From an uncultured Bacteroidota bacterium (lineage in GTDB: Bacteria > Bacteroidota > Bacteroidia > Chitinophagales > Chitinophagaceae): DNA of 64,000 nt. Positions within the stretch are counted from its first letter, which is position 1. Each line of letters begins with the position of its first letter. The notes below the pieces were generated by a model, which saw only the letters and a program-made list of their open reading frames with translations, was not told the origin of the DNA and did not search any database. This document shows, one piece after another, positions 34,168 to 56,535 of the stretch. The position numbers and the translations under genes were made by a program. The stretch lies in the NCBI GenBank assembly GCA_903829015.1, contig CAIKOJ010000151.1, positions 1-64,000 of the forward strand, written 5' to 3'.

Positions 34168-35088
34168 ATGAATTTCCCTGGTCAAACAAATTTCTATAAA
34201 GGCAAAGTACGTGATGTGTACACTATCGGCGACAAGTACTTACTGATGATAGTAAGCGATCGCATTTCTGCATTCGATGTCGTTCTACCTAAACCTATCC
34301 CTTACAAGGGCCAGGTGCTGAATCAGATCGCGGCCCAATTTCTTAACGCTACAAAAGATATCGTTCCAAACTGGATGCTGTCTGTGCCAATGCCTAATGC
34401 AACGATCGGGTATAAATGCGAAACTTATCCGGTTGAAATGGTGGTTAGGGGCAACCTCACCGGCCATGCATGGCGTACCTATAAGAGCGGCAAACGCGAA
34501 ATCTGCGGCGTTGCTATGCCCGACGGCATGAAAGAAAACGACTTTTTCGCAAAACCCATCATCACCCCTACAACCAAAGCCCACGAAGGCCATGATGAAG
34601 ACATAACGCGCGATGAGATCATCAGCAGCGGACTTGTTTCAAAAGCGGAATATGAGCAACTGGAAAAATACACACTTGCAATATTTGAAAGAGGCCGTGA
34701 AATGGCAAAAGAAAGGGGATTGATACTCGTTGATACCAAGTATGAATTTGGAAAGATCGGCGATACCATTTACCTGATCGACGAGATCCACACGCCTGAT
34801 TCCTCACGCTATTTCTACATGGAAGGCTATGAAGAGCGCCAGAAAAACGGAGAACAGCAGCGCCAGCTTTCTAAAGAATTTGTGCGTGAATGGCTGATGG
34901 GAAACGGCTTCCAGGGCAAAGAAGGACAGTCGATCCCTGAAATGACAGAAGAAGTAGTAGGTCAGATATCAGAGCGCTACATAGAGCTGTTTGAAGTAGT
35001 TACCGGCAGAACCTTTGTAAAACACGATGTGAACCATGCCGAAGAAGAAAGGAAGCTGATAGAGGCGCTGAACCAATTGAATGCGTAA
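34168..35088 (+). CDS. purC: Phosphoribosylaminoimidazole-succinocarboxamide synthase
   Basis: A 306-residue SAICAR synthase joining CAIR to aspartate with ATP. The ATP-grasp signatures are present: [18 protein letters not shown] at the start, [26 protein letters not shown] and EVVTGRTF near the end. A Bacteroidota promoter overlaps the upstream in-frame TTG at 34126, so the ATG at 34168 is the start. The TAA stop (35086-35088) is also the beginning of the first palindromic repeat (GTAAACCCC) of the DUF559 element, so the repeat joins directly onto the last codon. Confidence 0.95.
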
Positions 35089-35112
35089 ACCCCAACCCTA
35101 AAGGGAGATGTT
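35085..35112 (-). repeat. Palindromic repeat R1
   Basis: GTAAACCCCAACCCTAAAGG followed by GAGATGTT; one base differs from the other copies. Its TAA is the purC stop codon. Confidence 0.8.
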
Positions 35113-35196
35113 ACGTAAAATAGATTGCGCCTTGTGATTGCAGAAAATGTTTGGTTATTGCTTTGAAAAAATTTGTTTCCAATAGACTTTTAAGAT

Positions 35197-35223
35197 AACA
35201 CCTCCCTTTAGGGTCGGGGTTTA
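35197..35223 (+). repeat. Palindromic repeat F1
   Basis: AACACCTCCCTTTAGGGTCG then GGGTTTA; inverted relative to R1, with about 85 bases between them. Confidence 0.8.
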
Positions 35224-35240
35224 TAGGAATTGAGTACTAA

Positions 35241-35267
35241 TAATCTTTATGGAAATGAAAATGTTTT
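35241..35267 (+). pseudogene. Fragment of a second DUF559 gene (start codon and first codons only)
   Basis: After F1 the sequence continues exactly as in the intact copy through ATGGAAATGAAAATGTTTT (ATG at 35249), encoding Met-Glu-Met-Lys-Met-Phe, then hits TAA. Resemblance to the intact copy stops there. It is a truncated left end of the same element. Confidence 0.65.
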
Positions 35268-35296
35268 AATATTGTGAGTTATTGCAAATATGTTAC

Positions 35297-35326
35297 GTAA
35301 ACCCCGACCCTAAAGGGAGGTGTTTT
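35297..35326 (-). repeat. Palindromic repeat R2
   Basis: GTAAACCCCGACCCTAAAGG then GAGGTGTTTT; directly abuts R3. Confidence 0.8.
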
Positions 35327-35354
35327 GTAAACCCCGACCCTAAAGGGAGATGTT
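35327..35354 (-). repeat. Palindromic repeat R3
   Basis: GTAAACCCCGACCCTAAAGG then GAGATGTT; left boundary of the intact module. Confidence 0.8.
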
Positions 35355-35438
35355 ACGTAAAATAGATTGTGCCTCGTGGTTGCAGAAAATGTTTGGTTAT
35401 TGCTTTGAAAAAATTTGTTTCCAGTAAACTTGTACGAT

Positions 35439-35465
35439 AACACCTCCCTTTAGGGTCGGGGTTTA
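35439..35465 (+). repeat. Palindromic repeat F2
   Basis: AACACCTCCCTTTAGGGTCG then GGGTTTA; ends 25 bases before the DUF559 ATG. Confidence 0.8.
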
Positions 35466-35490
35466 TAGGAAATGAGTACAAACTTTCTTT

Positions 35491-35877
35491 ATGGAAAAGA
35501 AAATGTTTTTAAATGCGTCCTATACAATATTTGAAACCGCTAAATCCTTACGAAATAATCAAACAAATACCGAAAAACAACTTTGGGATTATTTAAAACA
35601 AAAACCACACGGGTATAACTTCAGAAGACAACATCCTATCAGCACCTATATAGCAGATTTTTACTGCCATCCTTTAAAACTGATAATTGAAATTGATGGA
35701 GGTTACCATCTAAAAAAGGAGGAGCAGAATTATGATAAGAACAGACAGGAAATTTTGGAAGGTCACGGAATCAGATTTTTAAGGTTCACAAACGATGAGA
35801 TTGAAAAAGAAATCAAGTCGGTTATAGCAAAAATTGAAGAATATTTTAACAGCACCATAAATAACACCTCCCTTTAG
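35491..35877 (+). CDS. DUF559 stand-alone endonuclease-like protein
   Basis: A 128-residue single-domain protein of the DUF559 group, related to Vsr-like and PD-(D/E)XK nucleases. Conserved positions: [15 protein letters not shown] (21-35), FRRQHPI (44-50), Asp56 in YIADFY, Glu67 and Asp69 in IIEIDGGYH, and [12 protein letters not shown] (93-104). The Asp56...Glu67-x-Asp69 arrangement fits a metal-binding nuclease site. The last residues Thr-Ser-Leu and the TAG stop are encoded inside repeat F3. Repeat F2 lies 25 bases upstream. No methylase or restriction partner is nearby. Activity is inferred; family identity is fairly secure. Confidence 0.88.
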
Positions 35878-35889
35878 GGTCGGGGTTTT
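35863..35889 (+). repeat. Palindromic repeat F3
   Basis: AACACCTCCCTTTAGGGTCG then GGGTTTT; right boundary of the element. It contains the DUF559 stop codon and ends 14 bases before the hutU ATG. Confidence 0.8.
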
Positions 35890-35903: not shown

Positions 35904-37559
35904 ATGTCAGAAACAACAACCTCACGCGTCATCCGCTCCCCTCGTGGCAGCCAGCTAACCTGTAAGAACTGGGTAACAGAAGCAGCATACCGAATGATCC
36001 AAAACAATCTGGACCCCGAAGTGGCTGAACGGCCTGAAGACCTCGTAGTATATGGTGGCATTGGTAAAGCCGCCCGCAACTGGGAGAGCTTTGATAAAAT
36101 ACTCGAATGCCTCAAAAACCTCAACGACGACGAAACGCTGATGGTGCAATCGGGCAAACCTGTTGGAGTACTCCGGTCGCACAAAAATGCCCCTCGCGTA
36201 CTTATTGCCAATTCAAACCTCGTTGGACGCTGGGCTACCTGGGAACACTTCAGGGAACTCGAAGCCAAAGGGCTGATGATGTATGGTCAGATGACTGCCG
36301 GCAGCTGGATATATATCGGTTCGCAGGGCATCGTTCAGGGCACCTACGAAACTTACCTGTCTCTGGCTAACATTCATTACAATGGCTCACTCAAAGGCAC
36401 TTTAAATGTTACAGCCGGACTTGGTGGTATGGGCGGGGCTCAGCCGTTGGCCATAACCATGAACGAAGGTGTTTGTCTGGCTGCAGAAATGGAAGACTGG
36501 CGCATCAAAAAACGTATTGAAACAAGATACCTCGATAAGTGGACGTCTGATATCGACGAAAGCATAGAATGGGCGTTGGACGCTAAAGCCAAAGGCGAGC
36601 GCATCTCCATTGGCGTATGCTGCAACGTCGTAGACCTGCTTCAAAGGCTTATCGACAGGAATATCATACCTGATACCCTTACCGATCAGACTTCGGCACA
36701 CGACGAGCTGATAGGTTATTTCCCCGAAGGATTGAGTGTAGCAGAAGCAAACGCCCTACGCACTACTAACCCGGAACAATACAAGAACCGCTCTCTGGAT
36801 ACGATGGCGCGCCACGTGCGCCAGATGCTGGAACTGCAGAAACATGGTGCCATCACTTTCGATTACGGCAATAATCTGCGCGGTCAGGCACACGACAAGC
36901 GCGGGGTAGCCAATGCTTTCGATTTCCCCGGCTTTGTTCCGGCTTATATACGTCCGCTGTTTTGTGAAGGTAAAGGTCCTTTCCGCTGGGTAGCACTGAG
37001 CGGCGACCCCGAAGACATCTATACTACAGATCAGGCATTGAAAGAACTTTTCCCCGACAATAAAGGTTTACACCGTTGGCTCGATATGGCCCGTGAGCGC
37101 ATTGCCTTTCAGGGCCTGCCTGCACGTATTTGCTGGCTGGGTATGGGCGAACGTGAAAAAGCGGGATTACTCTTTAACGAACTCGTGCGCACCGGAAAAG
37201 TAAAAGCACCAATTGTTATTGGCCGCGATCATCTGGATACAGGATCAGTAGCATCACCGAACAGAGAAACAGAAGCTATGAAGGATGGCAGCGATGCCGT
37301 AGCCGACTGGCCGATACTCAATGCACTCATTAACACAGCCGGCGGTGCCAGTTGGGTTTCCTTCCACCACGGTGGCGGAGTGGGTATGGGCTACTCACTG
37401 CACGCAGGTATGGTGATTGTTGCAGATGGCACCCAGGATGCAGAAGAAAGATTGAAAAGGGTATTGTTCAACGATCCCGCAATGGGGGTTATTCGCCATG
37501 CCGATGCTGGCTATGACATCGCTATTGACACCGGCGAAAAGTTCGGACTGATGATTTAG
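35904..37559 (+). CDS. hutU: Urocanate hydratase
   Basis: A 551-residue NAD-dependent enzyme of histidine breakdown, converting urocanate to imidazolonepropionate. Motifs include [49 protein letters not shown] (NAD-binding glycine cluster) and [12 protein letters not shown] near the end. Length matches the family (about 550-560). No hutH, hutI or hutG is in the window, so the pathway genes are dispersed. The upstream region is occupied by the DUF559 element; repeat F3 ends 14 bases before the ATG, so the native promoter must lie inside or beyond the element. ispF follows 68 bases later. Confidence 0.95.
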
Positions 37560-53758: not shown

Positions 53759-54058
53759 ATGAAAGGAGGATATGTATATATACTCACAAACAAACATCAT
53801 AACGTATTGTATGTTGGCGTTACCTCATCAATTGTAAATAGAATCCACCAGCATAAAAATCATTTTTATAAGAACAGCTTTACATCAAAGTACAACGTTG
53901 AAAAACTGGTGTACTATGAAGTACACCAAACGATAGAAGTTGCAATAGCGCGGGAAAAAGAAATCAAAAAATGGAATCGGTCTAAAAAAGAAACACTTAT
54001 CAATACGCTGAATCCCGACTGGAAAGATCTGTGGATTGAAATTAACGGTGAAACTTAA
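53759..54058 (+). CDS. Stand-alone GIY-YIG endonuclease (UPF0213-like)
   Basis: A 99-residue single-domain nuclease. The GIY position reads GYVYILTN (4-11), the YIG position LYVGVTS (17-23), the catalytic Arg28 lies in NRIHQHK, Glu66 in AIAREKEIKKWNR, and Asn in LINTLNPDW. These match the metal-dependent GIY-YIG active site. Members without extra DNA-binding domains have unclear targets. The gene is alone in a repeat-rich spacer between priA and a T9SS cargo gene, both transcribed the other way. An AAATTAGACTAACATTAATCACTACC leader shows no Shine-Dalgarno sequence. Confidence 0.9.
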   Translation: MKGGYVYILTNKHHNVLYVGVTSSIVNRIHQHKNHFYKNSFTSKYNVEKLVYYEVHQTIEVAIAREKEIKKWNRSKKETLINTLNPDWKDLWIEINGET

Positions 54059-56510: not shown

Positions 56511-56535
56511 ACACCTCCCTTTAGGGTCGGGGTTT
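56511..56535 (+). repeat. Solo copy of the DUF559-element repeat (F4)
   Basis: ACACCTCCCTTTAGGGTCGG then GGTTT, matching F1-F3 near 35 kb over its full length. No nuclease gene is beside it. Confidence 0.8.

Follow-up and report, generated by a model that had tools for sequence, protein, structure and literature searches.

Between purC and hutU, in an uncultured Bacteroidota bacterium of the family Chitinophagaceae, lies a small nuclease gene hemmed in by copies of a short repeat. The gene encodes a DUF559 protein of 128 residues, and nuclease and repeats together are probably a small mobile element. The window we analyzed is a stretch of 64,000 nt (contig CAIKOJ010000151.1, positions 1 to 64,000); the genome it belongs to (G000, its own genome in what follows) amounts to 3.99 Mb in 225 contigs. 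On the left is purC, a host gene for SAICAR synthetase at 34168..35088 (+), and on the right hutU, a host gene for urocanase at 35904..37559 (+), both assigned by Pfam. The DUF559 gene sits at 35491..35877 (+), and six repeat copies surround it. Copy 1 (35085..35113, +) overlaps the purC stop codon (35086-35088) and has an inverted partner in copy 2 (35195..35223, -). Copy 3 (35298..35325, +) is the left copy that faces the one at 35861. Copy 4 (35327..35355, +) is partnered by the inverted copy 5 (35437..35465, -), immediately upstream of DUF559, and copy 6 (35861..35889, -) forms the right end of the element, with the TAG stop codon of DUF559 (35875-35877) falling inside it. Exact copies of the core CCCTAAAGGGAG lie at 35096(+), 35202(-), 35308(+), 35338(+), 35444(-) and 35868(-). 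This is the geometry that a first-pass annotation had described, six copies in both orientations around one intact 128-residue gene in the purC-hutU spacer, and its further statement that no other gene is present also holds: the list of open reading frames (ORFs) and Pfam place DUF559 alone between the repeats.

Much of the spacer is built from two 188-nt units in tandem (35085..35272 and 35327..35514, both +), which are 91% identical and have one + and one - copy apiece. The first joins its repeat pair to a truncated 5' copy of DUF559, with an ATG at 35249 and a stop after six codons; copy 4 is the left end of the second, which continues into the intact gene. A single repeat makes a weak hairpin (-3.0 and -3.7 kcal/mol, z -0.4 and -0.7), each + / - pair a strong fold (-25 and -33 kcal/mol, z -5.8 and -8.5). 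Rfam offered microRNA for these pairs at scores far under the gathering cut-off, and we regard the matches as chance hairpins. Allowing up to two mismatches, the core has 11 matches (7 exact) in the whole window against an expected 3.66 +/- 1.87; a solo copy lies at 56512..56534 (-), with an exact core at 56515. The window also holds a GIY-YIG domain at 53768-53989, some 2.5 kb from that solo repeat, with no CCCTAAAGGGAG core within 1.5 kb. We tried four-helix-bundle (0/3) and GIY-YIG (0/5) loci of the own genome as sharers of the core and found no core at any, five of the eight loci being cut by a contig end.

Across the own genome a 23-nt consensus of the repeat finds 21 copies at up to three mismatches, and the reversed control finds 0. 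There are tandem, same-orientation arrays of the repeat away from both of the genome's DUF559 genes (C155:72723-72861, C147:6278-6300 and C58:28610-28732), and those on C58 and C155 have a common tail, GGGGTTTAT..G..AATGAGT. The second DUF559 gene, on contig C55 (locus L018), has one internal stop (TAA) and a related repeat on either side, the left one interrupted. Another GC-rich palindrome has seemingly been inserted in the loop of this left repeat (L018:1337-1390). The neighbors of this second gene are an MqnC/CofH-like gene and dnaN.

The identity of the nuclease is clear. Its ORF matches DUF559 (PF04480) with an E value of 2.9e-33 and 114.4 bits against a Pfam gathering cut-off of 20.6. 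A structure model of the protein (mean predicted local distance difference test score, pLDDT, 84.9) is matched by Foldseek to 3hrl, a DUF559 protein, and also to the catalytic domain of I-Bth0305I (3r3p; E 8.1e-5 and 3.6e-4, template-modeling score 0.76-0.79 by target), which a sequence profile finds as well (4.4e-6). The Vsr match is weak (Foldseek E 0.14; NCBIfam 0.028). Both the homing-endonuclease (I-Bth0305I / Vsr-like) catalytic fold and the D, E, D, H residues are present in DUF559, and the presumed catalytic D56, E67, D69, H73 and D82 are retained throughout the set of in-frame inserts described below. I-Bth0305I itself we take to be a member of the EDxHD family. EDxHD is one of the homing endonuclease families in the portion of PMC6083498 available to us. 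Known defense proteins in PADLOC match in part only, the best being mREase_II at 2.2e-8, 'homing endonuclease' at 5.2e-6 and DpdF at 7e-6.

How closely do gene and repeats keep company? Our Bacteroidota locus set is the best 80 of 383 DUF559 matches. We read 25 loci by eye, fixed a pattern, and then scored all 80, of which 55 were thus held out. The pattern is an inward pair: a core on either side of the gene, facing inward and no more than 300 bp away. It is found at 19/25 of the loci we had read and at 29/55 of those held out, and at none of the control ORFs in the same loci (0/70 and 0/141). Of the 80 loci, 29 hold hisF and have one ancestral site in common. With these removed the inward pair is still there at 15/21 read and 8/30 held-out loci, the latter against 0/141 controls (p 4e-7). 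A pattern-free inverted-repeat score of at least 30, again without the hisF loci, is reached at 14/21 read and 9/28 held-out loci and at 2/54 and 2/53 controls; this scoring omitted loci with less than 150 bp of flank, two of them in the hisF-free set. Many of the non-hisF loci bear a different repeat type. At least one core lies within 300 bp of the gene at 47/55 held-out loci, and of control ORFs in 9/70 and 35/141 cases. Because 35 of 141 controls have some core and none has an inward pair, it is the inward pair, and not the presence of a core alone, that marks DUF559. The first-pass annotation had asked whether gene and repeat occur together within 200 bp more often than chance; within 300 bp they do, inward pairs at DUF559 being far above those at control ORFs.

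Stand-alone DUF559 genes drawn from the family reach a score of 30 in 29/61 cases and control ORFs in 0/39; when upstream and downstream flanks of different loci are paired, 18/482 do so. Mismatched pairs score far less often, and the left repeat of a locus therefore matches its own right repeat. Long 'fused' DUF559 proteins reach 30 at their ORF ends in 1/7, because their repeats lie at domain junctions within the frame. One long frame deserves mention. At L043:3001-4137 it passes the right repeat (linker SPFRGSGG) and enters a His_biosynth (HisF) domain with no stop, a possible DUF559-HisF fusion. The frame extends at least 200 residues beyond the DUF559 domain in 27/80 loci, L043, the one scanned with Pfam, among them.

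Whole genomes tell of the association too. PF04480 occurs in 76 of the 147 genomes of the window's family (own genome counted). The CCCTAAAGGGAG core totals 167 copies in the 76 DUF559-bearing genomes and 23 in the 71 that lack it, the reversed control 20 and 20, and genomes bearing the core number 35/76 with DUF559 versus 15/71 without (Fisher p 0.0017 for presence, 4e-7 for copies). With 23 copies against 20 in the control, the core is therefore at background where DUF559 is absent; repeats equally frequent in DUF559-free genomes, the outcome that would have spoken against the first-pass annotation, are not what we see.

Repeat type, moreover, goes with protein clade. Relatives of the window protein have CCCTAAAGGG-type repeats, other clades CCCTCC...GGAGGG or CCCTCTCC...GGAGAGGG, and these clade-specific types coexist in a single genome, G027 (L113, L155 and L173 versus L182). 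On a tree of 87 rows, restricted to domains of at least 85 aa with E no higher than 1e-20, the three repeat labels need 11 changes; the mean for shuffled labels is 34.1, and 0/200 shuffles came as low. L175, a row from another clade, has the CCCTTTAGGG core.

Gain, loss and copying can be followed at three kinds of site. The first is the purC-hutU spacer, where the first-pass annotation had looked to occupied and empty alleles for the ends of an element. Nine loci of the genus (window included) have hutU with purC within reach on its upstream side; DUF559 is present in two and absent in seven. Two of those seven have a solo repeat after purC, three have other small genes and two have neither. 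(purC adjoins DUF559 in locus L026 too.) The second is methionyl-tRNA synthetase (MetRS). Each of two genera has one species with an insert and one with a plain eight-residue loop and no repeats, and the flanks of occupied and empty alleles are 97% and 89% identical in the two same-genus pairs. The third is a genome, G064, with two copies at unrelated loci. One sits between moxR and a DUF58 gene, the other between the genes for homoserine dehydrogenase and a GHMP kinase, and over 484 nt the two share 97.7% identity. The match stops at the outer edge of the right repeat; the left repeat is also common to both, with a more diverged stretch inside it. To judge from the sequences, this is copying within one genome, by transposition or gene conversion.

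The MetRS inserts belong to a larger set. We found 24 DUF559 domains, in 23 loci, within longer open frames (at least 100 residues on either side). The hosts are leucyl-tRNA synthetase (LeuRS) in nine loci, one of them with two inserts by the 100-residue criterion, cobalamin methionine synthase (MetH) in four, chorismate synthase (AroC) in three, MetRS in two, homocysteine methyltransferase in two, and CinA, Lhr helicase and HsdR in one each; Pfam made the assignment for 21/23 loci, and L125 and L128 were assigned from junction sequences. Placed on solved structures, the MetRS insert comes after residue 242 and before residue 245 of 1rqg, that of AroC between alignable residues 148 and 207 of 7rca. 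Inverted repeats at the junctions are translated in frame, with a score of at least 27 at 17/24 junction pairs and in 0/240 control windows of the same loci. Neither introns nor inteins house these domains: Rfam gave 0 intron RNA matches in the 20/23 loci scanned, and Pfam no intein (Hint) domain in 21/23. The inserts come close to a single lineage on the tree (3 changes), and their host genes are interleaved, AroC with LeuRS and CinA with MetRS, as would be expected had the unit moved between genes; the forks have moderate support from a short tree search (Shimodaira-Hasegawa-like approximate likelihood ratio test, SH-aLRT, 81-96). We note that L114 and L116, from two genera, each have one leucyl-tRNA synthetase with two DUF559 domains at two different sites. 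The HsdR subunit of type I restriction at L110:106-3318 has GIY-YIG and DUF559 domains in frame, and GIY-YIG may live in proteins in the same way as DUF559.

What kind of repeat is this? Beside DUF559 genes the layout is a pyrimidine block 1, a pyrimidine block 2 and a purine block 3. Given an asymmetric block 2, block 1 agrees with it better as a mirror image in 68 cases and as a direct copy in 14, with 25 ties (n=107; shuffled 27 and 26), on a filter, chosen after a looser one, that admits asymmetric pyrimidine arms in C-rich context only; the looser filter gives 107 mirror versus 67 direct (n=333). The mirror layout is that of intrastrand triplex motifs (TM), formerly BoxC and PIT, as set out in the part of PMC4666352 we could consult. 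By this layout the repeats flanking DUF559 belong to the BoxC/PIT type. In the window the blocks are CCCC, CCC and GGG, too short and uniform for mirror and direct to be told apart, and the hairpin is weak. With blocks of 3-4 nt, the place of the window repeat in the BoxC/PIT class therefore rests on its relatives, and we regard it, by shape, as a short, weak member. That same part of PMC4666352 states that no mobility gene was found near BoxC/PIT/TM repeats; a DUF559 gene might well have escaped notice there.

One motif in that source brings the story to E. coli. TM no. 9 (Table 1, PMC4666352, in the same part) has an exact copy at ~1,351,205-1,351,239 of E. coli K-12 MG1655, between fabI and ycjD. 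In E. coli K-12 it is ycjD (1,351,407-1,351,760) that encodes DUF559, and TM no. 9 lies ~170 bp downstream of it. At least 80% of a sapDF-ycjD-fabI query is held by 3362/5426 E. coli genomes. In the two ycjD-free strains we compared (L240 and L241) there is no clean empty ycjD site; both have an efflux operon (annotated MFS, outer membrane and RND subunits) directly after sapF.

Other phyla are represented by 15 loci out of 40 plasmid-collection records with a relative. An inverted-repeat score of at least 27 is reached by 11/15 (Alphaproteobacteria, Cyanobacteria and Deinococcus) and by 35/210 mismatched pairs, a threshold that is soft here, as 2/133 control windows of L238 also reach it; at 34 or above the figures are 10/15 versus 10/210. 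Several of these DUF559 genes split gene pairs: sufB-sufC (L225), the transhydrogenase genes (L224), yqeY-dnaG (L223) and paaD-paaZ (L234). On pSymB of S. meliloti Ak57 (L228) DUF559 has an unusually long inverted repeat (score 208) and lies beside an IS4-family element; a comparison of S. meliloti pSymB yielded no empty site that we could use.

We read the window locus, with a probability of roughly 0.6, as a small mobile element whose gene, for a DUF559 nuclease of the I-Bth0305I fold, lies between inward-facing copies of a BoxC/PIT-class repeat and whose movement is due to the nuclease. The parts of this reading are not equally firm. That nuclease and repeats are one element seems to us very probable; that nuclease activity drives the movement is a slightly better than even bet. 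Sequence comparison supports the view of gene and repeats as a single unit, which is there or missing as a whole, has been copied within a genome, and is housed in spacers and, in frame, inside conserved enzymes. The first-pass annotation had suggested a functional link, and the association behind it has held at the level of the locus, the genome, the clade and the purC-hutU spacer, while recognition, cutting or spreading of the repeats by the nuclease is something we infer.

The mechanism we have in mind would be that of a free-standing homing endonuclease. The nuclease would cut DNA, either in a conserved target that is still empty or in a folded repeat, and repair of the break would copy the whole unit into the cut; the choice of target, and a role for the triplex shape, we infer. 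Solo repeats and gene-free repeat pairs would then be decayed or non-autonomous copies. More tentatively, and at less than even odds, DUF559 proteins, among them that of ycjD in E. coli K-12, might be the missing mobility enzymes of BoxC/PIT repeats throughout bacteria. Mobile elements of this kind would be a new class: their homing-type nuclease would act on ends that form triplexes, they would spread through the repair of breaks, and they would enter essential enzymes in frame without intron or intein. That the repeats of ycjD are one-sided makes this broader idea less likely.

A good deal weighs against the reading of the locus as a mobile element, and it is best set out together. The held-out inward pairs divide by hisF, 21/25 at hisF loci versus 8/30 at the others; the held-out count leans on the orthologous hisF site, and its loci are therefore not independent. 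The position of DUF559 beside hisF in 29/80 loci looks like long vertical stability, which does not sit well with easy mobility. Eight of the 55 held-out loci have no core at all within 300 bp. In the own genome, 15 of the 21 copies of the 23-nt consensus lie outside the window locus and far from DUF559. Three genomes supply 57 of the 167 core copies in the family, and the statistics on those genomes ignore relatedness. Neither repeat label applies to 23/87 rows of the tree, and 7/24 in-frame inserts score under 27. At the two MetRS sites we compared we saw no target-site duplication, the insert replacing about eight residues. The MetRS inserts of the two genera are 83% identical versus 85-87% for their flanks; being as diverged as the flanks, they fit descent and loss as well as repeated gain. 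The G064 pair could be the product of gene conversion between two older copies. In E. coli, the downstream side of ycjD alone has TM no. 9 and two degenerate relatives, so that the gene is not bracketed, and in the other phyla 4/15 loci have repeats on one side only.

Against the mobile element stand four other explanations. The one that survives best has the repeats there first, as landing sites (REP-like intergenic palindromes), with DUF559 a passenger or a homing gene that inserts in or beside them. It would lead one to expect the solo repeats that directly follow purC in L201 and L196, species with no DUF559 gene at that place, and also the many solo and tandem copies elsewhere. We nevertheless think it unlikely. 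At the MetRS sites the empty alleles are free of repeats, repeat type tracks nuclease clade even within genome G027, and the core is at background in genomes that lack DUF559.

A second possibility is that DUF559 is a Vsr-like cellular nuclease of repair or stress, kept close to unstable repeats or with flanks that collect repeats, and that there is no element. Its long-term conservation beside hisF is in keeping with such a role, as is the DUF559-containing VsrA of Caulobacter, which acts in DNA damage according to the portion of PMC12907096 open to us. A repair enzyme would hardly be found in frame inside LeuRS, AroC, MetRS and MetH with repeats at most of the junctions, however, and this is a strong counter; presence and absence within genera, and two copies in one genome (G064), also tell against it. 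We consider it quite improbable.

It is very doubtful that some other enzyme, for instance a Y1/RAYT transposase, moves the repeats with DUF559 as cargo. The own genome does have three Y1_Tnp genes, and REP-flanked RAYT genes are known (PMC3733652, in the sections available). Yet none of the three (0/3) has a CCCTAAAGGGAG core nearby, and two (L019 and L021) have long inverted repeats of their own, with scores of 78 and 95 (the third, L020, has 32), on which grounds we rejected this reading; the conserved presumed catalytic residues also speak against DUF559 as mere cargo. Least credible of all is that the repeats are transcription terminators or RNA stabilizers, linked to DUF559 in appearance only through orphan genes lying in gene ends: several copies do directly follow stop codons, but the inward pair occurs at 0/211 control ORFs and repeats also lie within reading frames, where a terminator would truncate the host protein (our comparison with other small orphan genes covered the own genome only).

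If the mobile element is real, DUF559, found in 76/147 genomes of this family, gains a biological role, and a nuclease gene can reside in frame inside essential LeuRS or MetRS without splicing. The in-frame inserts matter for the annotation of their host enzymes. BoxC, PIT and triplex repeats have been known since the 1990s and described several times without a mover, for which DUF559 is a specific candidate, present in E. coli K-12. The open PubMed Central literature yielded no link between DUF559 and these repeats, or in-frame insertion; most subscription papers lay outside that coverage, which makes this weak evidence of absence.

Where does such an element belong among known systems? With BoxC/PIT/TM repeats it shares the three-block mirror layout, and an exact TM no. 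9 lies near ycjD; it differs in having a nuclease gene where those repeats are described without a mobility gene nearby (PMC4666352, as above), and in the window repeat the blocks are just 3-4 nt long. With I-Bth0305I, DUF559 shares the fold, a sequence match and the conserved D, E, D, H. It differs from I-Bth0305I and Vsr in being the catalytic domain only, bounded by repeats, with no intron or intein found. The palindromic units of Rickettsia (Rickettsia palindromic elements, RPE) also lie in frame within genes for functional proteins, but no enzyme is described inside them in the sections of PMC3733652 we have, and the unit here contains an intact nuclease. The same sections say that CGTC repeats are without a dedicated transposase.

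Another parallel is with REP/RAYT systems (REPtrons and REPINs). RAYTs, too, have a repeat type tied to enzyme clade. As far as those sections of PMC3733652 go, REP/RAYT systems and TIRYTs also share with our locus the dispersed short palindromes in spacers, the inverted pairs, the single enzyme gene flanked by repeats, and repeats that supply stop codons or lie inside genes. The enzyme is different: DUF559 with a homing-endonuclease fold here, a Y1/HUH transposase there. The DUF559 gene is also found in frame inside essential enzymes, and the window repeats (AACCCCGACCCTAAAGGGAGGTG and close variants) are without the GTAG tetranucleotide at the foot of the palindrome. The window element works like a REPtron, yet it fails two of the features that define REP/RAYT systems, the Y1 enzyme and the GTAG tag.

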